A stretch of 64,000 bases of DNA from Rhodothermus profundi (GTDB taxonomy: Bacteria; Bacteroidota; Rhodothermia; Rhodothermales; Rhodothermaceae). The stretch lies in the NCBI RefSeq assembly GCF_900142415.1, contig NZ_FRAU01000012.1:1-64000 (forward strand), given 5' to 3'. Positions 1 through 64,000 of this stretch are shown here, piece by piece. The notes beneath the pieces were generated by a model. The model did no database searches and had not been told where the DNA came from. It worked only from the letters and a program-made list of their open reading frames with translations. The position numbers were made by a program, and so were the translations under genes. The first letter of the stretch is position 1, and each line of letters starts with the position of its first letter.

Positions 1-21
1 GATTTTCCAGGCCGCCGACAT
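1..21 (-). CDS. Redoxin-like membrane-anchored protein, first seven codons only
   Basis: The ATG is at 21-19 on the minus strand and the reading frame runs off the left edge after MSAAWKI, identical to the start of the complete homologue at 33397-33918. Only the beginning of the N-terminal anchor is in the window, so function is inferred entirely from that homologue: a thioredoxin-fold protein held in the membrane. The assignment as a paralogue is secure because the leader and the first codons are nearly identical. Whether the rest of the gene is intact cannot be seen. Confidence 0.8.
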
Positions 22-126
22 GGCCGAAATGCTTCAAAGGGACCCGTACCTCGGCTTTGAGAAGCTGCTGTTAAGTTACACACAATCTGTCAAGGGCCTC
101 ATGCCAGTGAAATTGTAACTTTTATC
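1..126 (-). repeat. Copy 1 of the redoxin-cassette leader repeat (cut by window edge)
   Basis: Read on the minus strand, 126 down to 1 is nearly identical to 33288-33417 on the plus strand. From the TTAACAG motif to the first codons it also matches the block at 63844 onward. It holds a TTGACA hexamer, a short GT tract (three units), a leader of about 50 bases and the first seven codons of the redoxin-like gene. The match with copy 2 starts at GATAAAAG (126 here, 33288 there); beyond that the flanks are unrelated. No transposase or terminal repeat is visible. Confidence 0.9.
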
Positions 127-2006: not shown

Positions 2007-3230
2007 ATGGAATTTGTCGAAGCCTTCCGTATGGCCTGGACAGCCCTCCGCACCAACCGGCTGCGGTCAGGACTGACCCTGCTGGGCATGGTGATCGGCG
2101 TGTTTGCTATCATCAGCTCGGTAACGGCCGTCAAAGTGATTGATGTGTACTTTCGGGACTCGATGAACTTTCTGGGCTCCTCTACCTTCACCATTAGTCG
2201 CTACCCAAGCATTCGGGTGAGCAACGAACGGTTTGCATACCGCCGGCCCATCACCTACGCCCAGGTCGAACGACTCAAGCGCAGTCTGTCGCAGCCGGTA
2301 TTCATCAGCATTATGGAGTCGTTTGATCTCGGGGCTGTGCGCTATCAGGATCGGGAAACGGAGCCGAACGTGCAGCTCATTGGCACCGATGAAAACTTCC
2401 TGGAGAACTTCAGCTATGAGTTGGACGCAGGCCGTTTCATCACAGCGCAGGACGTGCACTACGTTCGTCCCGTCATTGTACTGGGGTCGGTGATTGCTGA
2501 AGAGCTCTTTCCCAACGAAACGCCGCTGGGCAAGGTGGTCCGCTTCGGGGGGCATCGCTACGAGGTCATCGGGGTGCTCAAAACAAAAGGTAGTTTTCTG
2601 GGCTTTAGCCAGGACCGGCGGGCGCTGATTCCGATTACGACGGCTTTTGCGCGCTATGGATTGCCGGAACGGGACCTGGCGCTGGTCAGCGTGCGCGTAA
2701 GCAGTCCGGAGCGATTGGGGGCCGCCATGGACGAGGTGATCAGCAAGTTGCGCATTATTCGAAAGGTAGCGCCGGGCCAGCCCAATGATTTCGAGATTAG
2801 CACGAACGATTCGATGCGCAGCGTCTTTGAGGCGTTCACGCGCACGCTTTCCATTGGAGGGGCCGGGATTGGATTGATCGCGCTGCTGGCTGCTGGCATT
2901 GGGATCATGAACATCATGCTGGTATCGGTTACCGAGCGCACGCGGGAGATCGGCATTCGCAAGGCGGTAGGCGCCCGGCGTCGCGACATTCTGCGGCAGT
3001 TCTTGCTTGAAGCATTTTTCTTGTGCCAGATTGGCGGGCTGGTCGGTATTTTACTGGGAGCGCTCGGAGGGAATCTGGTGGCGGTGTATTTTGACATTTC
3101 GGCCGTCTTTCCCTGGAACTGGGCGCTGGGGGGCATGCTTCTGGTTACGCTGGTAGCTGTGGTGTTTGGGAGCTATCCGGCATACAAAGCCGCTCGGTTG
3201 AATCCTATTGACGCGTTACGCTACGAATAG
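2007..3230 (+). CDS. MacB/FtsX-type ABC transporter permease (second of pair)
   Basis: A 407-residue paralogue of the preceding gene with the same plan: N-terminal helix at about residues 20-45, a periplasmic MacB-PCD-type domain, then three helices with the loop motif ERTREIGIRKAVGARRRD. Both proteins end in IxALRYE, showing a tandem duplication. It starts three bases after the upstream stop and ends three bases before rpiA, so the three genes are almost certainly co-transcribed. Co-expression with rpiA need not imply shared function. As with its partner, the ATP-hydrolysing subunit is not encoded nearby. Confidence 0.9.
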   Translation: MEFVEAFRMAWTALRTNRLRSGLTLLGMVIGVFAIISSVTAVKVIDVYFRDSMNFLGSSTFTISRYPSIRVSNERFAYRRPITYAQVERLKRSLSQPVFISIMESFDLGAVRYQDRETEPNVQLIGTDENFLENFSYELDAGRFITAQDVHYVRPVIVLGSVIAEELFPNETPLGKVVRFGGHRYEVIGVLKTKGSFLGFSQDRRALIPITTAFARYGLPERDLALVSVRVSSPERLGAAMDEVISKLRIIRKVAPGQPNDFEISTNDSMRSVFEAFTRTLSIGGAGIGLIALLAAGIGIMNIMLVSVTERTREIGIRKAVGARRRDILRQFLLEAFFLCQIGGLVGILLGALGGNLVAVYFDISAVFPWNWALGGMLLVTLVAVVFGSYPAYKAARLNPIDALRYE

Positions 3231-3233
3231 CCT

Positions 3234-3938
3234 ATGCCATTATCGGCAACAGAACAGGCGAAAAAGGCGGTTGGCGAAAAGGTAGCAGCCCTGGTGGTAT
3301 CAGGCATGCGGCTGGGACTGGGAACCGGCTCAACGGCTGCATGGGCCATTCGTGCAATTGGGCGGCGGGTGCGAGAGGAAGGACTGCAGGTGGTTGGGGT
3401 TCCCACTTCCTATGCCGCAGAACAACTGGCCCGGGCTGAAGGCATTCCGCTGGTTACGCTCGCAGACGTGGAAGAACTGGATCTGGCTTTTGATGGGGCC
3501 GATGAGGTCAGTCCCGCGTTAGATCTGATCAAAGGCCGAGGGGCGGCGCATACCCGGGAAAAAGTGGTGGCTACGCAAGCGCGGCGGTTTGTGGTGCTGG
3601 TAGATGCGTCAAAGCTGGTGCATCGGCTGGGCACGCGCTGCCCGGTGCCGGTCGAGGTGCTTCCCATGGCGGCTGCGCCCGTGATGCGGCAGCTTCGGCG
3701 TATGGGGGCCGAGCCTGTTCTACGCATGGGGAAAGCCAAAGACGGACCAGTGGTAACCGATCAGGGGTTCTGGGTAATCGACGCGCACTTCCCGGAAGGG
3801 ATCGACGATCCGCAGGCGCTGGCAATGACGCTTTCCACGATACCCGGCGTGCTGGACCACGGGCTATTTCTGGGCATGGCTACCGATGTGCTGGTAGGCG
3901 AGGCCAACGGACAGATCCGCCATATGCAGCGATCCTGA
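3234..3938 (+). CDS. rpiA: Ribose-5-phosphate isomerase A
   Basis: A 234-residue cytoplasmic enzyme interconverting ribose 5-phosphate and ribulose 5-phosphate in the non-oxidative pentose phosphate pathway. Diagnostic motifs are present: GLGTGSTAAWAI for phosphate binding, the catalytic segment FDGADEVSPALDLIKGRG with its two aspartates and lysine, then AAHTREK with the base glutamate. Length is normal for RpiA. It follows the permease pair by three bases and is followed by a strong terminator, so it closes this operon. Transketolase and a transaldolase lie about 11 kb downstream, giving the window most of the non-oxidative branch. Confidence 0.96.
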   Translation: MPLSATEQAKKAVGEKVAALVVSGMRLGLGTGSTAAWAIRAIGRRVREEGLQVVGVPTSYAAEQLARAEGIPLVTLADVEELDLAFDGADEVSPALDLIKGRGAAHTREKVVATQARRFVVLVDASKLVHRLGTRCPVPVEVLPMAAAPVMRQLRRMGAEPVLRMGKAKDGPVVTDQGFWVIDAHFPEGIDDPQALAMTLSTIPGVLDHGLFLGMATDVLVGEANGQIRHMQRS

Positions 3939-3963
3939 ACCGTTCTCAAAAAAGTAGAAAAAA

Positions 3964-3992
3964 GGCGCAGCCCTTCGGCTGCGCCTTTTTTT
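3964..3992. terminator. Rho-independent terminator, bidirectional
   Basis: Perfect 8-bp stem GGCGCAGC/GCTGCGCC (3964-3971 and 3978-3985) with a 6-base loop, followed by seven T on the plus strand and preceded by an A run that serves the minus strand. It separates rpiA from the convergent tonB-like gene. Confidence 0.93.
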
Positions 3993-4015
3993 CGCACAGA
4001 TGCGCCACGTAAAGC

Positions 4016-4681
4016 TTACTGGAGGCGGAAAACAACCGGCAGAGTGTAACGCACCCGCACGGGACGCCCGCGCTGCCGACCTGGCTTGAATTTAAGCTGG
4101 CTGACGCACCGAAGAGCTTCTTCATTCAGGCCGGCACCCGGACCGCTCAGCACCTGCGGATTGGTTACATTACCATTCTCATCTACCACAAACTGCACCA
4201 CTACGCGGCCCTCAACCCCGGCTTTCCGGGCGATCTCAGGATAGCGGATGCACTCATAGAGGGCCCGCATGCCTCCGATAAGCTGAGGCATTTCCTCTAC
4301 GATCACAAACACCTCCGGCTCCGGCTCCTCTTCCTCCTCGGGCGGCGGCGGAGGCGGCGGCACATTGGTAATGGCTTCGTTGATGTCCAGGGCGGCGTCC
4401 AGATTCAGATCTTCCTCTTCCAGCATCGTTTCATCTGGCACTTCTACAGGTACGGGCGGCCGTGGAGGAGGCGGTGGCTTGACTTCTTGCTTGGTCTGGA
4501 TGATCTCCTCCATTTGCACCACTTCCTGCTCCTCCATCACGAACTGGATCTCCTGCTTAGGCCGCCATTCGACCCGGAAGGCCACAATCAGGAGGAGCAG
4601 CGTAACAACCAGGCCGATCTCAATGTACAGCGGGTAACGCTTTCGCAGATCAGCCTCCTCCGTTTTCCGAACGATTCCCAT
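4016..4681 (-). CDS. TonB-family energy transducer
   Basis: A 221-residue protein: short cytoplasmic N-terminus, one transmembrane helix (about residues 18-37), a periplasmic region with proline blocks (PPPPPRPPVPVEVP and a run of seven prolines) and an acidic stretch, then a TonB C-terminal domain from about 135 ending LPVVFRLQ. The C-terminal domain contains RYPEIARKAGVEGRV and LKFKPGRQRGRPV, typical of Bacteroidota TonB. It transfers proton-motive energy to outer-membrane receptors, normally with ExbB/ExbD, which are not in this window. The proline-rich spacer is fairly short. It is the last gene of a minus-strand run and shares the terminator at 3964-3992. Confidence 0.92.
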   Translation of the reverse strand: MGIVRKTEEADLRKRYPLYIEIGLVVTLLLLIVAFRVEWRPKQEIQFVMEEQEVVQMEEIIQTKQEVKPPPPPRPPVPVEVPDETMLEEEDLNLDAALDINEAITNVPPPPPPPEEEEEPEPEVFVIVEEMPQLIGGMRALYECIRYPEIARKAGVEGRVVVQFVVDENGNVTNPQVLSGPGAGLNEEALRCVSQLKFKPGRQRGRPVRVRYTLPVVFRLQ

Positions 4682-4776
4682 GACCGATGGCTACTGGTTG
4701 GTGTAGCAGCGAAGATACGTCGTTTTCAACGTTCGAGCAACCACGCTTATGCATGAAGGATTGTTGAAGTTCCGAC

Positions 4777-5133
4777 TCAACTGTCGGTAGGATAAGGGGC
4801 CAGCCAGCGATCCAGAAAGTAGCCGGCCAGCAGGCCGAGACCATCGGCTACTAGATCCAACCACTCGGCAGAGCGGCCTATTGGCAGCAGGTATTGTCCG
4901 GCTTCGGTGAGAAAGGCCAGCAAGGTGCCCGTGATGAACACCCATGCAAGACGATGCTTTCCGGAAAGCACTGGCAGCCAGAAGCCAGCAAAGCCGGCAA
5001 AAAGAACAAAATGAGCAATTTTGTCGATCCACTGGAAAACGATGGGTTCGACCAGCTCGCCGGGCGCAAAGCAGGCGACCAGCACGCCCAGCGTCCATCC
5101 CACGGCCAGTAGGCGAAACAGCCGCATGGTCAT
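4777..5133 (-). CDS. VanZ-like membrane protein
   Basis: A 118-residue protein with four predicted hydrophobic helices. The pattern is that of small VanZ-like proteins: a charged KIAHFVLFAGFAGFW segment, then TEAGQYLLPIGRSAEWLDLVADGLG near the last helix. The founding member influences teicoplanin resistance, but most relatives have no known role. Its ATG overlaps the stop of the NAD(P)HX repair gene by four bases, so translation is probably coupled. There is no functional tie with its neighbours that I can see. Confident on family, not on function. Confidence 0.82.
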   Translation of the reverse strand: MTMRLFRLLAVGWTLGVLVACFAPGELVEPIVFQWIDKIAHFVLFAGFAGFWLPVLSGKHRLAWVFITGTLLAFLTEAGQYLLPIGRSAEWLDLVADGLGLLAGYFLDRWLAPYPTDS

Positions 5134-6725
5134 CGGTCAAAACGCGTTCGAAGTACAGCGGGCAAGTAGGTCAGCAAGTCGGATGCCATCATGGTTGCCG
5201 TTCCGTAATGGGCGGCGTAGTGATCGGCAACAGCGCCGCCCACATGCAGGGCGCACACGGCGGCCTGCGTGGGGGGCAAGCCCTGCGCCAGCAATCCTAC
5301 GCACAGGCCGGCCAGCACATCGCCTGTTCCGGCGGTCGCAAGCGCCGGATTTCCTGTTGCGTTAATCCAGACCGTTCCGTCAGGCCAGCCCACCACGCTG
5401 GGCATACCTTTTAGCAGGAGTACGCAATGCCATTGTTGCGCGTACTCCTGCACGACTTTGATGCGGTGGGTCAGGTCTACGTCGCCTGCCAGGCGGCGGA
5501 ATTCGCCGAGGTGTGGCGTGAGGATCCAGCGTCCCTGCGCATGCCGTGGGATCAACTCGGTAAATCCGACCAGCGCGTTCAGGCCATCGGCGTCGATCAC
5601 AGCAGGAAGCGATGTGCGTTCCAGAAGCGTACGGGCAAAACGCTGCGTGTCCGGATGGCGGCCCAGACCGGGGCCGACAAGCAGTGCGCGGGCGCGTTCG
5701 AGCCAGCCGTCCAGCACGTCAAAGGCATCTTCCTGGTCGATACCGCCCCGTTCGGTTTCGGGCAGGCCCAGCAGGGCGACTTCGGTTAGCTTGGTCGCTA
5801 GAACTGGCCGCACATCCGAAGGGCAGGCGCAGAGCACGTAGCCTGCGCCGATTCGTGCAGCGGCGGTGGCGGCCATCACAGGGGCTCCGGTGAACTCTCG
5901 CGATCCAGCTACGATAAGGGCCAGCCCTGCACTGTACTTATGAGCGTCGTGCGCACGCCGGGGCAGCCACTGGCGTATGAGGGCATCGGAGGCGCGCCAG
6001 GCACAACCTGGCTGGCGCGCTGCCTGCTCCAGTACGTGTCGTGGAATACCAATGTCGATCACATCAACGGTGCCGCACAGCCGGGGTCCCTCACCCAGCA
6101 ACAGCCCTACTTTGAGCGCGCCCATGGTGACAGTACGGGTTGCTGCAACGGCAGCGCCCAGGACCTGGCCGGTATCGCTGTCCAGTCCTGTGGGTATGTC
6201 GATAGCCAGAATGGGGGCCGGGTGTTCGTTCAGCCATTGTACCAGTTCTCGGATGGGAGCGCGAAGCGGACTGGAAAGCCCGGTGCCCAGCAGCGCATCG
6301 ACGTACAGATCGGCCCGGGGCAGATGATCCAGCTCGGCCAGATCTGTCAGCCGATGCAGGTGCAGGCGGTGGGCTGGGTCTGCTTCGGCGAGGTGCTCCA
6401 GAAGTCGGTAGTTGGCCGCAGCATCATCGCTCATGGCCGAAGCGTCTGCCAGCGTCACCACGTGTACGTGAGCGCCCCGGGCGTGCAGCACGCGCGCCAG
6501 TACGAAGCCATCTCCGCCGTTGTTGCCTCGCCCGCACAGGCACACAACGGTTCGCGCTGCCACGGTGCCCAGCATGCGGGCAGCCACTTCGGCAGCGCCA
6601 CGTCCTGCCGTTTCCATCAGCACGCGGCCGGGCAGTCCCAGCGTCTCAATGGTTTGCCGATCGGCTTCGCGCATCGCCCGGGCCGTAAGTACGGGTTCAG
6701 GGTGGGCTTCCAAAAGGGGGTTCAT
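5130..6725 (-). CDS. nnr: Bifunctional NAD(P)HX epimerase/dehydratase
   Basis: A 531-residue fusion that repairs hydrated NADH and NADPH. The N-terminal YjeF-type epimerase domain (about residues 15-225) has the signature CGRGNNGGDGFVLARVL. The C-terminal ADP- or ATP-dependent dehydratase of the ribokinase-like fold (about 240-525) has LTPHLGEFRRL and the anion-hole motif NPALATAGTGDVLAGL. Length and domain order match bacterial Nnr proteins. A run of ten A on the coding strand lies 13-22 bases before the ATG, in a promoter-like context. It is followed by the overlapping VanZ-like gene. Confidence 0.95.
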   Translation of the reverse strand: MNPLLEAHPEPVLTARAMREADRQTIETLGLPGRVLMETAGRGAAEVAARMLGTVAARTVVCLCGRGNNGGDGFVLARVLHARGAHVHVVTLADASAMSDDAAANYRLLEHLAEADPAHRLHLHRLTDLAELDHLPRADLYVDALLGTGLSSPLRAPIRELVQWLNEHPAPILAIDIPTGLDSDTGQVLGAAVAATRTVTMGALKVGLLLGEGPRLCGTVDVIDIGIPRHVLEQAARQPGCAWRASDALIRQWLPRRAHDAHKYSAGLALIVAGSREFTGAPVMAATAAARIGAGYVLCACPSDVRPVLATKLTEVALLGLPETERGGIDQEDAFDVLDGWLERARALLVGPGLGRHPDTQRFARTLLERTSLPAVIDADGLNALVGFTELIPRHAQGRWILTPHLGEFRRLAGDVDLTHRIKVVQEYAQQWHCVLLLKGMPSVVGWPDGTVWINATGNPALATAGTGDVLAGLCVGLLAQGLPPTQAAVCALHVGGAVADHYAAHYGTATMMASDLLTYLPAVLRTRFDR

Positions 6726-22179: not shown

Positions 22180-22425
22180 CTATTGTGGTTTTATAATTTC
22201 TCCACAAGCTTTTAGGTAATGCTCATTTCGCTTGCAATCTGTATAGTTTTGTCTGCACCACTGAGAAAAGTCTTGATAATACTCATCATAAGCTGCGGTT
22301 AAATAGTCAGCTCCTGCGAATAATCCAACAATTACGCCTCCAAGCGCACACATTACTCCCGCACTTGGCGATGTAGCTAATTGGAAAATTTTTACTAAAA
22401 GCTCGGCGCCACCAGCTACTCCCAT
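22180..22425 (-). CDS. 81-residue Gly/Cys-rich protein, bacteriocin-like, or displaced C-terminus of the upstream gene
   Basis: From the ATG at 22425 the frame gives 81 residues. Its start MGVAGGAELL is preceded by a G-rich stretch. A Gly/Ala-rich hydrophobic segment (about 22-39, GVMCALGGVIVGLFAGA) is followed by a polar tail with cysteines at 57, 64 and 74 (another at 26). Codons become AT-rich within a few residues of the start. It overlaps the frame of 22307-22909 by 119 bases in a different register. Two readings are possible: an independent small secreted or antimicrobial peptide, or the true C-terminus of the upstream protein joined by a one-base shift in GGGGG at 22426-22430. Confidence 0.5.
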   Translation of the reverse strand: MGVAGGAELLVKIFQLATSPSAGVMCALGGVIVGLFAGADYLTAAYDEYYQDFSQWCRQNYTDCKRNEHYLKACGEIIKPQ

Positions 22426-22909
22426 CCCCCACCACCGACCAGAACGCCTCCACCCACGCCTCCCGACCAAACACCAACACCGCAACACTATACAACACCC
22501 CCGAACGCTCCGCCCCCAACGCCGCCACCACCGCCGCCTCATACCGACCCAGCCGCGCGTCCAACTCCGCCACCGTGTGCGACGTCCGAAACACCTCCCA
22601 CAACCGCCCCATCCACACCTGCTGCTCCGCATCCAACCCCAGACTGTCCCACCAGGCCGTCAGACGATCCCCCGAGCGAGCCTCCCCCAACACCAACTGC
22701 GCCCGACGATACCCCGTCAGCACACCCGTCACCCCATGCGTCCGCTCATAAGCTGCCAGCGCCTCCTCCAGCAACCGACCCACTTCCTGACGATCCAGCC
22801 GCTTGCCCGCCCGAAACGCTTCCTGGCGCCGCACATAGCGCACCACGAAACGCGCCAGGCGTTCCTGCTCTTCGACCAGCGCTCGGCGAAAACGCGAAGG
22901 ATCCAGCAC
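22307..22909 (-). CDS. Helical protein of unknown function with abnormal C-terminus
   Basis: A GTG start at 22909 follows AGGAGG closely. Residues 1 to about 160 are strongly helical, GC-rich and host-like in codon use (LVEEQERLARFVVRYVRRQEAF, then DRQEVGRLLEEALAAYERTHG). Beyond about residue 165 this frame enters AT-rich DNA and gives low-quality sequence to its stop. The +1 frame from 22425 looks protein-like to its own stop at 22180. I infer a recombination joint or frameshift at the junction, so the intact protein may combine this N-terminal region with the 81-residue product. No domain recognised. Layout resembles toxins with conserved N-termini and replaceable C-termini. Confidence 0.5.
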   Translation of the reverse strand: MLDPSRFRRALVEEQERLARFVVRYVRRQEAFRAGKRLDRQEVGRLLEEALAAYERTHGVTGVLTGYRRAQLVLGEARSGDRLTAWWDSLGLDAEQQVWMGRLWEVFRTSHTVAELDARLGRYEAAVVAALGAERSGVLYSVAVLVFGREAWVEAFWSVVGDGSSWWRRAFSKNFPISYIAKCGSNVCAWRRNCWIIRRS

Positions 22910-22915
22910 CGCCTC

Positions 22916-23017
22916 CTAGTTCGGCGTTGGTGTCCAGCCCTCGCACCCCGATAGGCCCACCAGCAGCGTGAAAAGCCCGATCGCAACGACAGGGCGTCCG
23001 GATCCAAAACGAGCCAT
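22916..23017 (-). CDS. Predicted 33-residue lipoprotein
   Basis: This frame reads MARFGSGRPVVAIGLFTLLV, then the lipobox LSGC, then a ten-residue tail ending TPTPN. It would yield a lipopeptide of about eleven residues after signal peptidase II cleavage. The stop TAG overlaps the AGGAGG of the next gene, which suggests coupled translation. AAAGGG directly abuts the ATG, which is a poor spacing, and an in-frame upstream TTG (WHISHTK...) is possible. Very small lipoproteins next to bacteriocin genes act as lysis or release proteins in some bacteria. That role is only a suggestion here. Confidence 0.42.
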   Translation of the reverse strand: MARFGSGRPVVAIGLFTLLVGLSGCEGWTPTPN

Positions 23018-23454
23018 CCCTTTCAGGACATAGACCGGTTTGGTGTGGGAAATGTGCCACAAAACCGCTACGGTATTTTTTTAACAGAGCAAGTGATCAT
23101 GTATTATGATTCCATGAATGATAGCCGGTTTTCCTTTGATTGGTAAGCGTTTAGCCTGAGTGAAATTGCTTCTATTTATGCAACAGTTTTGAAAAATAAA
23201 TTATGGTGATCGGTTGCTTTGTGGAACGGAGCGCTTTCCCGTGCAGCGACGATCCGGCTTCGGTCGGGGTGGGCGGATGAGATGGAAGGATTGGACCACG
23301 AGGTTGAGGGGAGGCAGGGAGGCCGGGGCCGTATTGGATGGCTTCTGGGCGCGTGGGACGAAGCGTTCCCTCAGGAAGGGCTTCAAGGCGCCAGGGGGCA
23401 AAGCATCCATCCGGAGGGGCCGCTGGGGAGGCACCCGGGTTTCTGGGAGGGGGG
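23018..23454. other. 437 bp without a supported gene
   Basis: The left 180 bases are AT-rich and probably carry the promoter of the minus-strand island genes. The rest (23200-23454) is GC-rich and lies downstream of the propeller gene; its open frames on both strands show low-complexity, proline/arginine-rich translations typical of chance frames. Confidence 0.5.
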
Positions 23455-24570
23455 TCAGGGGGAGCGGTCGGAAGGGACAGGTTCCAGGCACCAGGGCCAG
23501 AGCGCCCAGCGGTCCTGCCCTTCCAGGTAGCGTTTGAGGTAGAGGCACGAATCTCGGGCCGTTGCAAAAGAACTGTAATGCAACGAGTACTGCGCGCGCA
23601 GCCGCAGCGGAAACGGGATGCGGTCGATTTCCTGGCGCGTGGCGGGGTTGATCACAAGGAGGCGGAGCCAGCGTTTTTCCGGGCCCTGTCCGTGCTCCAG
23701 TTGCACAACCAGATAGCGATCCTGAAGCACAAACAGCCCCCTCGTGCGACTGTTTGTCGTCAGATAATCCACCCATTGCTCCCGGTACGCTTTCCATTTG
23801 CCCTGTTGCAACAGGGCTTCCAGGTCAGGAGGAGGGCGCACCTGAAAGTCGGGGTCCTCCAGCCGGCGCCAGGATCCCTGTCGACCGGAGCGTAAATCCA
23901 GAAAGTAGATATGAGGGGCGTCGGCCGGTGTGGCCAGCACGATCGAATTGCCCAGCAGCGCGAGCCCACCTGAGGCATAGTATCTCAGCAACGCCTCGTG
24001 CGCCGGTGTCAGAAGCGGCCGGTCCAGCGCATGCGTGAATTGCCGGGCCTTCAGGTCGAATACTTCGACCAGGACCGGGCGGCGTCGACCAGCCCAGTAG
24101 AGGATGAGATGCTGGCGATGGAGCAGCCAGTGCTGCAGCGCAGCCGGGAGCACTGGAAGAAACGGATCGCGCAGGAGGCGGCCGTCCGAGATCCGGTACG
24201 CTGCCACCCGACCGCGCATGCCGCCCCGCAGCAGCAACGTATCGCCCCAGACCGCAATCTGGGGTGGGGCCATGAATTCACCGGGACCCTCGCCGCGGAA
24301 ACCCACACGCCGCACCAGGCGCCCCTCTGCCGAGAAGAGGTAAAGCCCGGGAGGTTGCCGGTCGCTTACCAGAAACAACGCGCGGGTCGGGTGGGCCACT
24401 ACCTGATGAGGATCTCCGACCAGTACGCCGGTAAGTGGAATAGGCGGCTGCGAGACCAGTTGCAACCGCTGGCGTTCTCCTACCAGGACGTGCGGCTGAG
24501 CCTGGCGGCAGCGTGCGACCACGCTGCCGCCAACCATCAGGACAACCCCTATTACTCGGGACCACCGCAT
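23455..24570 (-). CDS. Secreted six-bladed beta-propeller protein
   Basis: A 371-residue protein beginning with a hydrophobic signal segment (VIGVVLMVGGSVVA). The body has blade-like repeats and the hallmark GFRGEGPGEFMAPPQIAV of the Bacteroidota six-bladed propeller family (PF17170-like). Later segments such as LFLVSDRQPPGLYLFSAEGRLV and RYLVVQLEHGQG fit further blades. Such proteins are surface or periplasmic and of unknown role; several lie beside small secreted peptides. A second, more diverged propeller sits in the cassette at 34257. The stop is about 440 bases before the AT-rich island genes on the same strand, so a link is possible but unproven. Confidence 0.75.
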   Translation of the reverse strand: MRWSRVIGVVLMVGGSVVARCRQAQPHVLVGERQRLQLVSQPPIPLTGVLVGDPHQVVAHPTRALFLVSDRQPPGLYLFSAEGRLVRRVGFRGEGPGEFMAPPQIAVWGDTLLLRGGMRGRVAAYRISDGRLLRDPFLPVLPAALQHWLLHRQHLILYWAGRRRPVLVEVFDLKARQFTHALDRPLLTPAHEALLRYYASGGLALLGNSIVLATPADAPHIYFLDLRSGRQGSWRRLEDPDFQVRPPPDLEALLQQGKWKAYREQWVDYLTTNSRTRGLFVLQDRYLVVQLEHGQGPEKRWLRLLVINPATRQEIDRIPFPLRLRAQYSLHYSSFATARDSCLYLKRYLEGQDRWALWPWCLEPVPSDRSP

Positions 24571-31140: not shown

Positions 31141-33204
<2,064 letters not shown>

Positions 33205-33287
33205 GGTCTGCCCTCGCCAACGTTACGAAAACCAAACCGTTCCCGCCCTGGATGAGCGAAAAACGGGCATGCACTTCATGCAGAAGC

Positions 33288-33494
33288 GATAAAAGTTACA
33301 ATTTCACTGGCATGAGGCCCTTGACAGATTGTGTGTGTGTATCTTAACAGCAGCTTCTCAAAGCCGAGGTACGGGTCCCTTTGAAGCGTTTCGGCCATGT
33401 CGGCGGCCTGGAAAATCGGCCTGGGCCTGTTGCTCGTCGCCTTGAGCTGGGGCCTCTACGGCTGGCAAACGCAGCGACGCCTGCCGCAGGTGCC
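33288..33494 (+). repeat. Copy 2 of the redoxin-cassette leader repeat
   Basis: From 33288 this matches copy 1 (126 down to 1) apart from the GT tract and one or two substitutions. From TTAACAG (33344) through the coding start it matches copy 3 (63844-64000), the coding part with a handful of silent or near-silent changes. The leader from 33344 to the ATG has a single base difference among three copies (G/A at 33390). Conservation of the untranslated leader is at least as high as that of the gene. Confidence 0.92.
33321..33349 (+). promoter_or_regulatory. Cassette promoter with GT dinucleotide spacer
   Basis: TTGACA (33321-33326) and TTAACA (33344-33349) are separated by 17 bases containing five GT units. 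The same elements are 13 bases apart in copy 1 (three GT units) and 19 in copy 3 (five GT units plus a longer flank). A 17-base spacing is optimal for sigma-70-type recognition. An alternative -10-like reading, TATCTTAA at 33340, is also possible. Confidence 0.55.
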
Positions 33495-33918
33495 CTTCCC
33501 GTCCGAGGCGTTTGTGCCCGTGTGGTCGCCTCGGGAAGCCGCGAGCGCAACGGCCGTTGCTCGGGGCGAGGTGCTGCTGTTTTTCAGCCCGGACGACTGT
33601 GGGCAGACGGTGGCGCGCACAGCGGCGTTCTGGGTCGAGGGGGCGCAGGCGCTGGGCTTTCAGGTGGTGGGGATTCTGGAAGACCGGAGCCGGGCGCAGG
33701 CGTGGCGCTATGCGGCGGGGATGGGCTTTCCGTTTGCGGTGTGGTGGGATTCGCTGGGATGGTACGGGCAACATTATGGGTCGGCGTTGTTGCCGCGGGC
33801 GCTGGTTCGTTGGGAGGGACGGGTAGTGGCGGAACTGGGGCCGGCGGTGTTGCGCACGGTGCGGGGAGTTGAATCGGTGCGGTTGCTGTTGACCGACTCT
33901 TTTCGCGATGAACAATAG
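33397..33918 (+). CDS. Membrane-anchored redoxin-like protein (cassette copy 2)
   Basis: A 173-residue protein. The N-terminal hydrophobic helix (about 5-22, IGLGLLLVALSWGLYGW) is an uncleaved anchor or signal. The rest fits a thioredoxin/TlpA-like fold: strand EVLLFFSPDDCGQT with one redox cysteine C68 where thioredoxins have CxxC (here CGQT), helix, strand VVGILEDRS, and the cis-proline region SALLPRALVRWEGRVVAELG (P133). With a single cysteine it would act as a peroxiredoxin-like or mixed-disulfide enzyme, or as a binding protein. It is followed 44 bases later by the six-cysteine mini-protein gene. The ATG is shared by all three copies. Confidence 0.75.
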   Translation: MSAAWKIGLGLLLVALSWGLYGWQTQRRLPQVPFPSEAFVPVWSPREAASATAVARGEVLLFFSPDDCGQTVARTAAFWVEGAQALGFQVVGILEDRSRAQAWRYAAGMGFPFAVWWDSLGWYGQHYGSALLPRALVRWEGRVVAELGPAVLRTVRGVESVRLLLTDSFRDEQ

Positions 33919-33962
33919 AGCTTTCTGTATTTTTTCAAAAACCAAACGCAAGGAGGTGAGCG

Positions 33963-34172
33963 ATGAGACGCTGGAAGGATCGGCTGGCGACGTTGTTTCT
34001 GGTGGTGGCGATAGGTCTGAGCCTGCTGCCGTGGGTGTATCAGCCAGAAGAGGCCAAAGGAGATCCGTATGTCTGTGAAAAACAGTTAGGATCACGGGAC
34101 AGAGTGCCTACCTGTTTTGATATGCCATGCGAGACGCGACTTTGCTGTCTGGATATATGTGAGCAGCAGTGA
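33963..34172 (+). CDS. Secreted six-cysteine mini-protein (69 residues)
   Basis: AAGGAGGTGA at 33950-33959, a full anti-Shine-Dalgarno match and rare in this window, precedes the ATG at optimal spacing. Residues 1-8 are basic, 9-24 hydrophobic (ATLFLVVAIGLSLLPW), then PEEAKG, a plausible processing region. The last 32 residues hold six cysteines (38, 51, 56, 61, 62, 66), enough for three disulfides. No family is recognised. The plan (short signal-bearing peptide between a thioredoxin-fold gene and a beta-propeller gene) recalls NVEALA-peptide loci of Bacteroides, but the sequence is different. A strong terminator follows nine bases after the stop. Confidence 0.8.
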   Translation: MRRWKDRLATLFLVVAIGLSLLPWVYQPEEAKGDPYVCEKQLGSRDRVPTCFDMPCETRLCCLDICEQQ

Positions 34173-34180
34173 GGTTTACA

Positions 34181-34227
34181 GGGATCAGTATCTATGCATT
34201 AATGTAATAGATACTGATCCCTTTTTT
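34181..34227 (+). terminator. Strong terminator between mini-protein and propeller genes
   Basis: Perfect 15-bp stem GGGATCAGTATCTAT/ATAGATACTGATCCC (34181-34195 and 34207-34221) with an 11-base loop, then six T (34222-34227). It lies inside the cassette and would leave most transcripts covering only the redoxin-like and mini-protein genes. Confidence 0.93.
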
Positions 34228-34256
34228 GTCTCAAAAACTAAAGCCATCTCACTATC

Positions 34257-35309
34257 ATGAAAGTCTTTCCGGTGACGGTTGTGTGTTTGTTGTTCACAAT
34301 AACTGCTCAGGCGCAGGACATTTCAGATGTTATTGAATGGATTGAAGAAATCACGCTGGAAGAAAAAGATAATTTCTGGATTATTAATCCTTACGTCACC
34401 ATCGATCCTGAGGGGGGATTTCTGGTAGCCGATCGGGATAGAGTCTGTGCATATACTCGTTCAGGAAAGATGAAAGTATGTTTTGGAGAATCTGGGGCGC
34501 CGGGAGCGCCCGGGACTCTCCAATCTCCTGATGAACCGGTGCGCGTCAGCTCTGGGCACATTTTGGTTCCAGAAGTAACAACCGGCAATGTGAGCGTTTT
34601 TGATAGCGAGGGAAATTTTGTAAAAAGATACTCTCGGATCATCCAGGGTCCCGTTTTCCTTCGCAATCTGCCGCTGGAAAACAAGGTATTGGTGATCGGC
34701 CTTGTGGAGATAAACCGTGGTACGCGTCCTCGATTGTTGCACGTATTTGAGATTGAACAGGGGCGCATTGTACAGAGCTTCTTTAGTGCCCCTGTTGCCC
34801 TGGGTGACTACGGAGGCTTGCTTTATACGATAGCACCTCTGGCTGTGGCTGATGTGCGGGATCGCACGATTGTGGCTGCTTTTGCGCTATTCGATGAGTT
34901 ATACTTTTTCGATCTAAATGGTAACTTAAAGAAAAAAATTTTACTATCGTTACCGCACTTCCGCAAGGTGAAGCAGCCTGAAAAAGAGATTGCGTCACGA
35001 GAAGAATGGTTTGAGTTTCTTAAAACGTTTTCTACTATGAACGATATATTCTGGTTGAATGAAAAGGTCATCTTGATTCAGTATACGGACACCATTGACT
35101 TACAGCGAAGAGCAGTGCGATGGAATCTGGCGGCCGTGACCCTGGAGGGAAAGCTCCTCTTTGATCTGCGTGATACGCCTCGCCTTTTTGCTGTGGACGG
35201 GCAGCGTGGCGAAATGTTTTTCAGCCACCCGGCTCATGAGACGGAAAACTACTGGATGGTCGGCCGCCTGAAGCCTGAAGTGCTTCGAGCGGCCGATCTG
35301 TGGCCGTAA
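34257..35309 (+). CDS. Secreted six-bladed beta-propeller-like protein
   Basis: A 350-residue protein with a clear signal peptide (MKVFPVTVVCLLFTITAQAQ). The body shows blade repeats: GGFLVADRDRVCAYTRSGKMKVCFG, then HILVPEVTTGNVSVFDSEGNFVKRYS, and LYFFDLNGNLKKKILLSLPHF. It resembles the Bacteroidota six-bladed propeller group, although the GxGPGEF hallmark is replaced by GAPGAPGTLQSP. The start region lacks a Shine-Dalgarno, and the gene is visibly less GC-rich than its neighbours. It lies just past the strong terminator, so it is read by leakage or from its own promoter. Function unknown; binding of the mini-protein is a reasonable guess. Confidence 0.7.
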   Translation: MKVFPVTVVCLLFTITAQAQDISDVIEWIEEITLEEKDNFWIINPYVTIDPEGGFLVADRDRVCAYTRSGKMKVCFGESGAPGAPGTLQSPDEPVRVSSGHILVPEVTTGNVSVFDSEGNFVKRYSRIIQGPVFLRNLPLENKVLVIGLVEINRGTRPRLLHVFEIEQGRIVQSFFSAPVALGDYGGLLYTIAPLAVADVRDRTIVAAFALFDELYFFDLNGNLKKKILLSLPHFRKVKQPEKEIASREEWFEFLKTFSTMNDIFWLNEKVILIQYTDTIDLQRRAVRWNLAAVTLEGKLLFDLRDTPRLFAVDGQRGEMFFSHPAHETENYWMVGRLKPEVLRAADLWP

Positions 35310-35487: not shown

Positions 35488-38436
35488 TCAGCTTTCTTCT
35501 TCGTCGAGCAGTTCGTCTTCCAGGAGTTCTTCGGTTGATTCCTCCTCGATGGCGAGCTGGTCGAGGTCGATCCATTCTTCGTCGGCCCCGTCGGTCAGGG
35601 CGGTCGTACGCGCCAGTTCCTTGCGCAGGAAGCGGCCGGTGTGCGTATCCTGCTGGGCCAGTTCCTCCGGCGTGCCGGCAAACAAAATGTGCCCTCCGGC
35701 GTCGCCGCCTTCGGGGCCCAGCTCGATCACATGGTCGGCCGTCTTGATCACGTCCAGGTTGTGTTCGATCACCAGCACCGTGTTGCCTTTGCGCACGAGC
35801 GCCCGGAGCACGGCCAGCAGGTGACGGATGTCTTCGAAGTGCAGGCCCGTGGTGGGTTCGTCCAGGATGTAGAGGGTGTTGCCGGTGCCCGGACGCGACA
35901 GTTCGCGGGCCAGCTTGATGCGCTGGGCTTCGCCCCCGGAGAGCGTGGTGGCCGGCTGCCCCAGCCGGATGTAGCCGAGCCCAACGGCCTGCAGCGTGCG
36001 CAGCTTGCGGGCGATGCGCGGCAGGTGCTCGAAAAAGACCAGAGCTTCCTCTACCGTCATTTCCAGGACGTCGGCGATGCTCCGGCCCTTATAGCGCACC
36101 TCCAGCGTTTCGGCGTTGTAGCGGCGGCCTTTGCAGGTCTCGCAGGTGACATGGACGTCGGGCAGGAAGTTCATTTCCAGTCTGACAACCCCGGCCCCTT
36201 TGCAGGTCTCGCAGCGGCCGCCTTTTACGTTGAAGGAGAATCGGCCAGGTTTGTAGCCGCGCAGCTGGGCTTCTGGAAGCTGGGCGAACAGGTCCCGGAT
36301 GTAGCTGAACAGGCCGGTATAGGTGGCCGGGTTCGAGCGCGGCGTGCGGCCGATGGGCTTCTGGTCGATGTCGATCACTTTGTCCAGATGCTCCAGGCCT
36401 TCGATGCGTTCGTAAGGCAGCGGTACCAGGCGGGCGTTGTGAAAGTGGCGGGCGAGGATGGGATACAGCGTCTGGTTGATCAGGCTTGATTTGCCCGAAC
36501 CCGAGACGCCCGTGACGCAGATGAACGTGCCCAGCGGGAGCACGAGCGGGTCGCCCTTCAGGTTGTGGCCGCGGGCGCCGCGAAGCACCAGCCGGTGACC
36601 GTTGCCACGGCGCCGCGTGCGAGGGATCGGAATGTAGCGTTCGCCTTTCAGGTAGGCCGCCGTCAGGCTGGAATGACCGTTTCGGGGCTCCAGGCGGTCG
36701 GGGGGGCCTGTGGCCACGACATAGCCGCCCTGTTCGCCTGCGCCGGGTCCCAGATCGATCACATAGTCGGCTGCCTCGATCATTTCGCGGTCATGTTCGA
36801 CGACCAGGATCGAGTTGCCCAGATCACGCAGTAGCTTGAGCGCGTCGATGAGGCGGTGATGGTCGCGGGGATGCAGGCCGATGGAGGGCTCATCAAGCAC
36901 GTAGAGCACACCGGTCAGTTGAGAGCCAAGCTGCGCGGCCAGGCGGATGCGTTGGCTTTCGCCGCCCGAGAGGGTGCGGGCGGGGCGGTCCAGCGTCAGG
37001 TATCCCACGCCCACGTCAATCAGAAAGCCGAGGCGCTCCAGAATTTCTTTAAGGATCGGGCGGGCAATGAGGGCCTTCTGACCATCGAACTTTACGGTGG
37101 ATAGGAAGCGTCGCAGCGAGACCAGGTCCATGCGGGCCAGCTCGGCGATGTTCTTGCCGGCGATGCGGAAGGCCAAGCTTTCGGGCTTCAGGCGAGCCCC
37201 GCCGCAGGCGCGGCAGGTCATCTCGCGCATGAACGATTCGGCCCAGCGCCGCTGAGAAACCGACCCGGCATGTTCGCGCATGTGGTGCAGGTACTCGTAG
37301 AGCCCCCCGAAGCGATGGCGGTAGTGCAGCGTGCGGTCTTTGTAGCGGTATTCGATCTCGAACTCTTGATCGCCGGCGCCTTCGAGCAGTACGCGTCGCT
37401 GCCTGTCGGTCAGCTTGCCCAGCGGCGTATCGAAGTCGAAGCCATAAGCGGTGGCCACAGCGCGAAGCTGGCTGAAGATCCATCCGTCGCGGGGTTTGCC
37501 CAGCGGAGCCAGGCCCCCTTCGTTGATGGATTTCGCAGGGTCCGGGATGACGAGCGCCGGATCGATCTCTAGCCGGGTGCCCAGGCCGTTGCAGGCCGGG
37601 CAGGCCCCGTAGGGCGAGTTGAAGGAAAAGGTATTGGGCGAGGGATCGTCGTAGGAGACACCATCTTCCGGGCAGTAGAGATGGCGGCTGAAGACATGAT
37701 CGGTGCCGGTCCCGTCGGGATGGAGCTCGTGCGCAATGAGCACCCCGCCTCCCATGCCCAAGGCGATCTGGACCGAGTCGTGCACGCGGGAGCGGAGGTC
37801 GGGTCGCACCACCAGGCGGTCCACCACCACTTCGATGTCGTGCGTCCTGTAGCGGTCCAGCTTCATGCCTGCTGTGATCTCACGCAGCTCGCCGTCTACC
37901 CGCACGCGCGTGAACCCCTGCCGGGCGATCTGTTCGAAAAGTTCGCGGTAATGCCCTTTGCGTCCCCGTACGACAGGAGCCAGTATCAGCAGCCGGGTAC
38001 CTTCCGGAAAACGCAGCAGTTGGTCGATGATTTCGTCATCGGTCTGGCGGCGCATAGGCCGGCCCGAGATATGCGAATAGGCGGTTGCCACGCGCGCGTA
38101 GAGCAGTCGGAGAAAGTCGTACACTTCGGTGACCGTGCCAACGGTCGAGCGAGGATTCTGACTGACGGTCTTCTGCTCGATGGCGATGACCGGCGAGAGG
38201 CCATCAATAAAATCTACATCGGGCCGCTCAAGCATGCCCAGGAACTGACGGGCGTAGGCTGAGAGGCTTTCCAGGTAGCGCCGTTGTCCTTCTGCATAGA
38301 TCGTATCGAAGGCCAGGCTCGATTTGCCGGATCCCGAAAGGCCGGTAATGACCACCAATTGCTCCCGGGGGATGTCCAGGTCAATGTTTTTCAGGTTGTG
38401 CTCTCGTGCGCCCCGGATGACAATACACTCCTGCAT
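35488..38436 (-). CDS. uvrA: Excinuclease ABC subunit A
   Basis: 982 residues from the ATG at 38436 ([20 protein letters not shown]); the frame is open 57 codons farther but nothing there resembles UvrA. Two ABC ATPase modules are present. Walker A sites are [20 protein letters not shown] and [15 protein letters not shown]; signatures are [19 protein letters not shown] and [19 protein letters not shown]. Zinc-finger cysteines include CPACNGLG and paired CETCKG motifs. It scans DNA for lesions with UvrB in nucleotide excision repair. The acidic C-terminal tail ([18 protein letters not shown]) is unusual. It diverges from marC. Confidence 0.97.
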
Positions 38437-38605
38437 ACGGCGACCAGGCCCGACCACGCGTTGCGCCTCAGAAGGTTCAAGCGTGTTCCAACAGCGACCG
38501 CCGGGGTTCGTTCCGCCGGTTTTTTCGCAAGAGCGTTGCAGATGGCACGGAACGAAACGGATAGTTGGGCTTTGACCGCTGCCGATATTTGCGTCGGCAC
38601 CAGCC

Positions 38606-39199
38606 ATGCATGCCTATTTAGAAACCTTTTTGCCCCTGTTTGTGGCCATTAACCTGCCGGGAATCCTGCCATTTTTTATAGCCCTGACGCAAGGATTGCC
38701 GGCAGCCGATCGGCGGCGTCTGCTCGTGCGGGCGGTCGCGACAGCCTTTGTGGTGGCCGTGCTGATTCTGTTTGCCGGGCAACTCATCTTTCAGACGCTG
38801 GGCATTACGCTGAACGATCTGCGGGTGGGTGGGGGACTGATTCTGCTTGTGCTGAGCATCGCCGACCTGGTGTTTGCGGACTACCGTCGGCGCGACCCTC
38901 GCGATGGGGCTGATGCGGCCGATGTGGGCGTGGTGCCCCTTGGCATTCCGCTAATCATTGGGCCGGCAGCGATCACTACGATTCTGGTGGCGCAGCAGAC
39001 CTATGGCTATCTGCCTACCCTTGTGGCTCTGATCGCCAATCTGCTGTTGGTGACCGTGGCGTTCAGCATAGGGCATGGGGTGATGCGGAGGCTGGGACCT
39101 GTGGCTGTGCGCGCCATGGCCAAGGTAGCCAGCCTGTTTCTGGCAGCCATTGCTGTGGCCATGATTCGGGCAGGTGTGGTCGGCATGCTGGGCGGATAA
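38606..39199 (+). CDS. MarC-family integral membrane protein
   Basis: A 197-residue protein with six hydrophobic helices in the MarC/UPF0056 pattern: LPLFVAINLPGILPFFIALTQGL at the start, GGGLILLVLSIADLVF in the middle and VVPLGIPLIIGPAAITTILVAQQ in helix four. Members were once linked to multiple antibiotic resistance, but transport activity is unproven. It starts 170 bases from uvrA, transcribed divergently, and lies 72 bases before rpoZ. Its function is unknown. Confidence 0.9.
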   Translation: MHAYLETFLPLFVAINLPGILPFFIALTQGLPAADRRRLLVRAVATAFVVAVLILFAGQLIFQTLGITLNDLRVGGGLILLVLSIADLVFADYRRRDPRDGADAADVGVVPLGIPLIIGPAAITTILVAQQTYGYLPTLVALIANLLLVTVAFSIGHGVMRRLGPVAVRAMAKVASLFLAAIAVAMIRAGVVGMLGG

Positions 39200-63641: not shown

Positions 63642-63824
63642 TACGGAGGCAACGGCAAGACGGCCAGGTGCGGAACGGTTCGGAAACGTTTGCAACGCGG
63701 CAGCCTCGGGCCGACGCAGCAGGGGATGCCGGGATCAATCCATCGCCCTGTTGAAAAGCCACGCTTTCAAACCCTCACGCTCCGACCAACTACGCGTCTC
63801 CTGGTTATAGTTCGGACCTGGTAC

Positions 63825-64000
63825 TTGACAAATCCTGTGTGTGTGTAACTTAACAGCAGCTTCTCAAAGCCGAGGTACGGGTCCCTTTGAAGCATTTCGG
63901 CCATGTCGGCGGCCTGGAAAATCAGCCTGGGCTTGCTGCTTGTCGCGCTAAGCTGGAGCCTCTACGGCTGGCAAACGCAGCGACGCCTGCCGCAGGTGCC
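63825..64000 (+). repeat. Copy 3 of the redoxin-cassette leader repeat (cut by window edge)
   Basis: From TTGACA (63825) through the leader, which is identical to copy 1 from TTAACAG to the ATG, and on through the coding start. Upstream of TTGACA no similarity to the other copies remains. Five GT units and a changed flank (AATCCT) give a 19-base spacing between TTGACA and TTAACA. Confidence 0.92.
63903..64000 (+). CDS. Redoxin-like membrane-anchored protein, 5' part (cassette copy 3)
   Basis: The ATG at 63903 opens a frame that continues past the window end. Its first 32 residues differ from copy 2 by two substitutions (SAAWKISLGLLLVALSWSLYG against IGLG...SWGLYG), followed by the identical WQTQRRLPQV. 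It therefore encodes the same N-terminal membrane anchor and the start of the thioredoxin-like domain. Most nucleotide differences are at third positions, so the protein is under purifying selection after duplication. Whether a six-cysteine mini-protein and propeller follow lies outside this window. Confidence 0.85.
   Translation, partial: MSAAWKISLGLLLVALSWSLYGWQTQRRLPQV

Follow-up and report, generated by a model that had tools for sequence, protein, structure and literature searches.

The 64,000-nucleotide stretch of Rhodothermus profundi DNA considered here (contig NZ_FRAU01000012.1 of assembly GCF_900142415.1; hereafter, the window) carries, in the gap between thiC and uvrA, which are both encoded on the minus strand, a cassette of three plus-strand open reading frames (ORFs): 33397-33918 (173 amino acids, aa), 33963-34172 (69 aa), and 34257-35309 (350 aa). 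The original prediction, made from the letters of this stretch, described a redoxin-like protein with a single CGQT cysteine (Cys), a 69-residue protein whose final 32 residues include six Cys, and a 350-residue beta-propeller. The ORFs occur in that order and at the predicted positions, exact to the base and on the same strand, and the three products bear out their descriptions. The scope of the cassette is larger than first noted: it is multi-copy, site-specific, and allelic. It is read here as encoding a peptide and a propeller that form a matched pair, with redox maturation of the peptide, and its features in the window are as follows.

33291..33396, + strand: cassette 5' region (promoter and leader region), approx. 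75-95% DNA identity with other copies in the genus
33397..33918, + strand: membrane-anchored monothiol thioredoxin-like protein, 173 aa; its only Cys is C68 (33598-33600), in DCGQT
33963..34172, + strand: exported six-Cys protein, 69 aa; leader (residues 1-33) conserved, core variable
34062..34169, + strand: inferred mature peptide DPYVCEKQLGSRDRVPTCFDMPCETRLCCLDICEQQ, 36 aa, net charge -3; AKG/DP cleavage inferred from sequence
34180..34228, + strand: hairpin followed by a T run, probable terminator or attenuator in the gap between peptide and propeller
34257..35309, + strand: exported NHL-type beta-propeller, type B', 350 aa; signal peptidase I (SPase I) signal AQA/QD, judged by eye

A promoter scan scored no consensus sigma-70 promoter in 33291..33396, and a Pfam/NCBIfam scan of the three proteins returned no scoring match except a weak one of the propeller to an NHL-type model.

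The 69-aa protein is preceded by a strong ribosome-binding site (AAGGAGGTG, 33950-33958), begins with a basic/hydrophobic N-terminus, and has its six Cys between residues 38 and 66. The leader MRRWKDRLATLFLVVAxGLSLLPW recurs among the Rhodothermus copies. Four-Cys cores follow the pattern C-x(5-10)-C-x6-C-x-C in all 12 cases, mostly with an IVI-type strand and a proline (Pro) thereafter, while six-Cys cores, including that of the window, follow C-x(12-13)-C-x(4-5)-C-x(4-5)-CC-x(2-3)-C. With cleavage sites inferred by eye, the mature peptides would be 31-44 residues long, with a net charge of -2 to -9 (acidic in 16 of 16 cores). A profile search of the peptide against the PDB gave mainly SecG signal-like noise, which was set aside, and a phage search found no relatives. 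The four invariant Cys, with their CxC pair, would also suit a metal or electron carrier whose Cys bind a metal that the redoxin helps to deliver, much as SCO-type thioredoxin-fold proteins deliver copper; however, the cores show no conserved histidine/methionine ligand pattern, the redoxin has no second Cys, and in the six-Cys version the spacing differs and includes a CC pair, so that such a carrier is quite improbable.

The propeller family profile matches NHL propellers in the PDB with E-values down to 2e-40, as expected of a 6-bladed NHL propeller (DUF5128/NHL). Relatives of the window propeller match the DUF5128 '6-bladed beta-propeller' model above the Pfam cut-off; the window protein alone has no Pfam score. 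Moreover, the window propeller carries an SPase I type signal, whereas most of its relatives are lipoproteins, their lipobox being assigned by eye.

Comparison of the window cassette with the C12-right cassette separates a constant part from an exchanged one. DNA identity is mostly 67-98% from approx. 33349 through the redoxin gene and the peptide leader, collapses at 34030-34068, where the signal peptide ends, and amounts to approx. 36-58% for the remainder. Between some species, propellers that share a type reach 87-96% identity (87-91% for type B across species), compared with approx. 47% between B' (window) and B and approx. 20% between B and A. In all ten distinct intact Rhodothermus loci, the tail and propeller types agree: six-Cys tails accompany non-lipoprotein propellers, and four-Cys tails accompany lipoprotein propellers. 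Such agreement would arise once in 210 cases if the pairing were random, a figure that ignores the relatedness of the loci and thus overstates their independence. Because the types agree and similarity collapses after the signal peptide, the peptide core and propeller are taken to be exchanged as a unit, and this joint exchange is the strongest evidence here for a specific pairing. Taken by itself, the pairing of peptide and propeller is highly probable. The ratio of nonsynonymous to synonymous substitution rates (dN/dS) is below 1, and mostly far below, for the redoxin, the propeller, and most peptide comparisons, which points to purifying selection on the cassette genes; a single peptide-tail value of 1.39 comes from only 39 codons with a very small dS and is uninformative.

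The redoxin contains one Cys only, C68 in the motif DDCGQT, and a predicted N-terminal helix (residues 4-26). Its profile matches tryparedoxin (E 0.0036) and ResA (E 0.03-0.06) in the PDB, and on account of these matches, together with the predicted order of strands and helices, a thioredoxin-like fold is probable. In particular, the hallmarks of the TlpA/ResA/tryparedoxin fold are present, with the active-site Cys at the start of helix 1 and a cis-Pro before a later strand. C68 and the cis-Pro-type P133 are invariant in nine redoxin homologues from two families, in which the active-site motif reads CGQT, CYSS, CYSN, CYTN, CYRN, or CQPS; CAPC occurs only in locus L126. The position of the second active-site Cys of CxxC thiol-disulfide oxidoreductases is occupied by T, S, or N. 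With a single thiol, a redoxin of this kind cannot complete the usual CxxC cycle; it might act as a disulfide isomerase or keep the peptide bound in a mixed disulfide. A plasmid search with the redoxin found no relatives.

The peptide leader and redoxin recur in five of the seven Rhodothermus genomes, and the sites that they occupy recur across species as well, namely thiC/uvrA, dinB-macB/uvrD, birA-bioB/ROK kinase, and murF/rho, with differing content. In the window genome, the cassette 5' end matches six places, several of which lie at contig ends with assembly breaks. C12-left and C7-start are probably two parts of a single copy that the assembly divided; C12-right and C4-end may represent either a single copy or two. 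Two of these partial copies and the genes flanking the main cassette lie within the window:

63824..64000, + strand: second cassette, 5' end, at the birA/bioB site; runs past the window (six-Cys peptide, type B propeller)
1..126, - strand: third cassette, 5' end, at the dinB-macB/uvrD site; cut by the contig end
31141..33024, - strand: thiC, left flank of the cassette site
35488..38607, - strand: uvrA, right flank of the cassette site

At thiC/uvrA, a six-Cys peptide accompanies a type B' propeller in the window strain and a type B propeller in G005, and a four-Cys peptide accompanies type A in G003. In G002, the four-Cys peptide gene is frameshifted (L068, 8474-8700), and the redoxin and type A propeller genes are open. 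No cassette is present at this site in G004 (L217, 1397-2791), which has an HD phosphohydrolase there (PADLOC dGTPase model, E 4.9e-57), and in G006 (L220, 492-1252) an NTase-HEPN pair stands beside a redoxin fragment. G003, G005, and G006 are fragmented, and in these genomes the two sides were joined to one site via the flanking genes. The thiC/uvrA gap seems to be a variable site, open to conflict-type genes as well.

Exchange of this kind could also reflect strain competition, with a bacteriocin-like peptide acting as an effector against close relatives and the propeller serving as the immunity or sequestering protein. A conserved leader with a variable core, several copies per genome, the joint exchange of core and partner, and the dGTPase-like gene or NTase-HEPN pair found at the variable thiC/uvrA site in other species would all fit. 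However, every core is acidic (-2 to -9), which sets the peptides apart from most cationic pore formers, and the C-terminal NC-x-C-x-[IV] motif is kept across families, unlike in fast-evolving toxins. The double-glycine leader and dedicated exporter of class II bacteriocins were not seen either; the leader is of the Sec type, the flanking genes are thiC and uvrA, and there was no PADLOC or PHROG match. An explanation of this sort is unlikely.

Class-wide profile searches with the peptide extended the cassette beyond the genus. The peptide was found in family f13 (G049, G055, G131, G169, and G176, with a broken copy in G535) and in family f18 (G101 and, weakly, G074). Each of the five f13 genomes whose peptide gene is intact has the order redoxin-peptide-propeller, and G131 has a second peptide-propeller pair. 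In G101, the order is an AraC-type regulator, MauE (39.3 bits; cut-off 27), a four-Cys peptide, a DUF5128 propeller lipoprotein, and a CAPC thioredoxin-like protein. A propeller gene lies directly 3' of every confident peptide gene for which downstream sequence is available. Weak peptide matches in other families of the phylum fell mostly within long unrelated frames and were not used, the exception being L160, a DUF6520-type locus.

The peptide and propeller genes of the window are separated by a hairpin of -28 kcal/mol (z -6.9) with six T after it; having an A+T-rich or long stem beyond the limits of a simple terminator scan, the hairpin was not listed by that scan. The same gap holds hairpins of z -4 to -6.5 in G131 (at both pairs), G169, G176, and G101, and weaker ones of z about -2 in G049 and G055, these z-scores being derived from mononucleotide shuffles. 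Among the Rhodothermus copies examined, those of types A and B have no hairpin, and their peptide and propeller genes abut or overlap. The intergenic hairpins suggest that more peptide than propeller is made at many loci. The hairpin that parts the two genes in the window might also be taken to mean that three unrelated genes are adjacent by chance. This is very improbable, since the order is kept across families and many sites and core and propeller are exchanged jointly; co-occurrence refutes it.

The occurrence data thus bear on several further claims of the original prediction. The genes, whose absence as a set elsewhere would have told against it, do co-occur in other genomes and families, and their grouping, conserved in other species, is more than chance. 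Neither are the Cys free to vary among homologues, as the four-Cys scaffold (12 of 12) and the six-Cys scaffold are each kept. The added redox partner recurs in the form of a single-Cys redoxin, a CAPC thioredoxin, or MauE, and the suggestion that the peptide is bound or sensed by the propeller gains strength from the joint exchange of the two between loci. The layout resembles that of the NVEALA loci of Bacteroides, in which a leader and short Cys tail are encoded with a propeller nearby, but kinship to NVEALA is not supported: neither the window protein nor the other mini-proteins match NVEALA (PF14055) at E up to 10, and nothing above cut-off was found in the 198 genomes of the phylum that were searched.

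The loci of the Sphingobacteriaceae-like family f31 offer a distant parallel. There, DUF6520 (PF20130) peptides above the Pfam cut-off stand directly behind MauE, which is fused to, or followed by, a domain of approx. 350 aa; Pfam gives this domain no name, and its sequence character suggests a propeller. Both systems thus combine a small exported protein of about four Cys, a thiol-redox membrane protein, and an approx. 350-aa partner. The f31 loci differ in having MauE in place of the redoxin, often fused to the partner domain, and an AraC-type regulator. The best mini-protein scores 16.3 bits (E 0.012) against a DUF6520 gathering cut-off of 25.4 and thus falls outside the family; in profile comparison, the four-Cys mini-proteins and DUF6520 align with a probability of 80 and E 1.4e-5, largely over the signal region, so that kinship is possible but not secure.

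A similar set of parts, comprising a propeller, a Cys-rich small subunit, the thioredoxin-like MauD, and MauE, is encoded by the mau operon for methylamine dehydrogenase. By analogy, the cassette may work like the maturation part of an amine dehydrogenase system. The cassette might even encode an enzyme of this kind, in which the Cys protein is the catalytic small subunit, folded with MauD/MauE-like help and docked on the propeller as large subunit; the shared parts list and the MauE genes in the f18 and f31 loci speak for it. In contrast to the mau system, however, the peptide is much smaller (core of 31-44 residues), the cores lack the conserved tryptophan pair from which tryptophan tryptophylquinone is made, the redoxin is monothiol, and Rhodothermus has no MauE above cut-off. 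Moreover, profiles of the methylamine and aromatic amine dehydrogenase light and heavy chains gave no Pfam match at E up to 10, and an enzyme is rather improbable.

The decRiPPter study reports MauE/MauD genes of Streptomyces beside a gene for a small Cys-rich precursor and refers to a role speculated for MauE in methylamine dehydrogenase disulfide formation (PMC7794033). Those clusters differ in belonging to another phylum and in having at least 8 Cys, and the passages concerned mention no propeller (PMC7794033). A literature search that left most subscription journals outside found no description of the redoxin/peptide/propeller combination and no paper on NVEALA or DUF6520. The component families and the logic of a peptide with a cognate partner are known; within the scope of that search, the combination is undescribed.

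Under the reading of a matched pair whose peptide undergoes redox maturation, the cassette would yield an exported, disulfide-bonded, acidic mini-protein of approx. 31-44 residues and a propeller that binds it specifically. The leader would be removed by signal peptidase, and the redoxin, membrane-anchored and facing the envelope, would form or shuffle the peptide disulfides, a role that MauE or the CAPC thioredoxin may fill at related loci. A terminator between the genes would lead to an excess of peptide over propeller, and the latter, usually an envelope lipoprotein, would act as the cognate receptor, carrier, or neutraliser of the peptide. Most likely, the peptide would be used as a ligand or signal (or mild effector) in allele-specific recognition. 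As deduced from sequence comparison, this whole chain has a probability of about 0.5.

Several observations weigh against it. The lack of a second Cys in the redoxin excludes an ordinary oxidase or reductase role, and no MauE above cut-off was found in Rhodothermus, where there is one sub-threshold match (G000:C4:95385). Two Rhodothermus species lack the cassette entirely, and profile comparison detects no homology between the f31 partner and the propellers of Rhodothermus. Furthermore, the AlphaFold2 models, built on shallow alignments, are too poor to confirm the redoxin fold (predicted local distance difference test, pLDDT, 54) or to be used for the fold or docking of the propeller (pLDDT 40). 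When the redoxin model was submitted to Foldseek, the matches were mainly tRNA synthetases at template modelling (TM) scores of approx. 0.3, and the result was discarded.

A more far-reaching possibility, put forward tentatively and on balance doubtful, is a new recognition system in which a constant module (promoter region, monothiol redoxin, and export leader) is combined with interchangeable core/propeller modules recombined at fixed sites, giving Rhodothermus lineages different matched peptide-receptor sets that would serve in signalling or in strain recognition. Should the pairing prove real, the cassette would represent a widespread class of loci, so far undescribed, in which Rhodothermota/Bacteroidota combine a disulfide peptide with a thiol-redox protein and a propeller. 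A first testable role, peptide binding, would then be at hand for many anonymous DUF5128/NHL propeller lipoproteins and DUF6520-like peptides, and a thermophile would supply small disulfide scaffolds together with the partners that naturally bind them.

Some further loci deserve mention. Two are variant cassettes. In L054 (G000:C5:187000-198000), at 2964-5440, a redoxin fragment is followed by a small glycine-rich hydrophobic peptide (GISAGTTALVGFAIGVVGAVVCA), which by eye resembles a bacteriocin, and then by a membrane protein and a type A propeller; of L065 (1-2007), only the membrane protein and propeller are clear. The window itself has a second propeller gene (23455-24570, minus strand) that matches DUF5128 above the Pfam cut-off. 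Downstream of it lies a degenerate-looking ORF, whose 3' part, in another frame (22180-22632), encodes a Cys-containing hydrophobic tail; 22180-24570 (minus strand) is possibly another, damaged peptide-propeller locus. Elsewhere in the window, an ordinary thiamine pyrophosphate (TPP) riboswitch lies upstream of thiC (33107-33212, minus strand), and a diverged direct repeat common to 1660-1826 and 2881-3047 belongs to two adjacent MacB-type permease genes, which are ordinary tandem paralogues.
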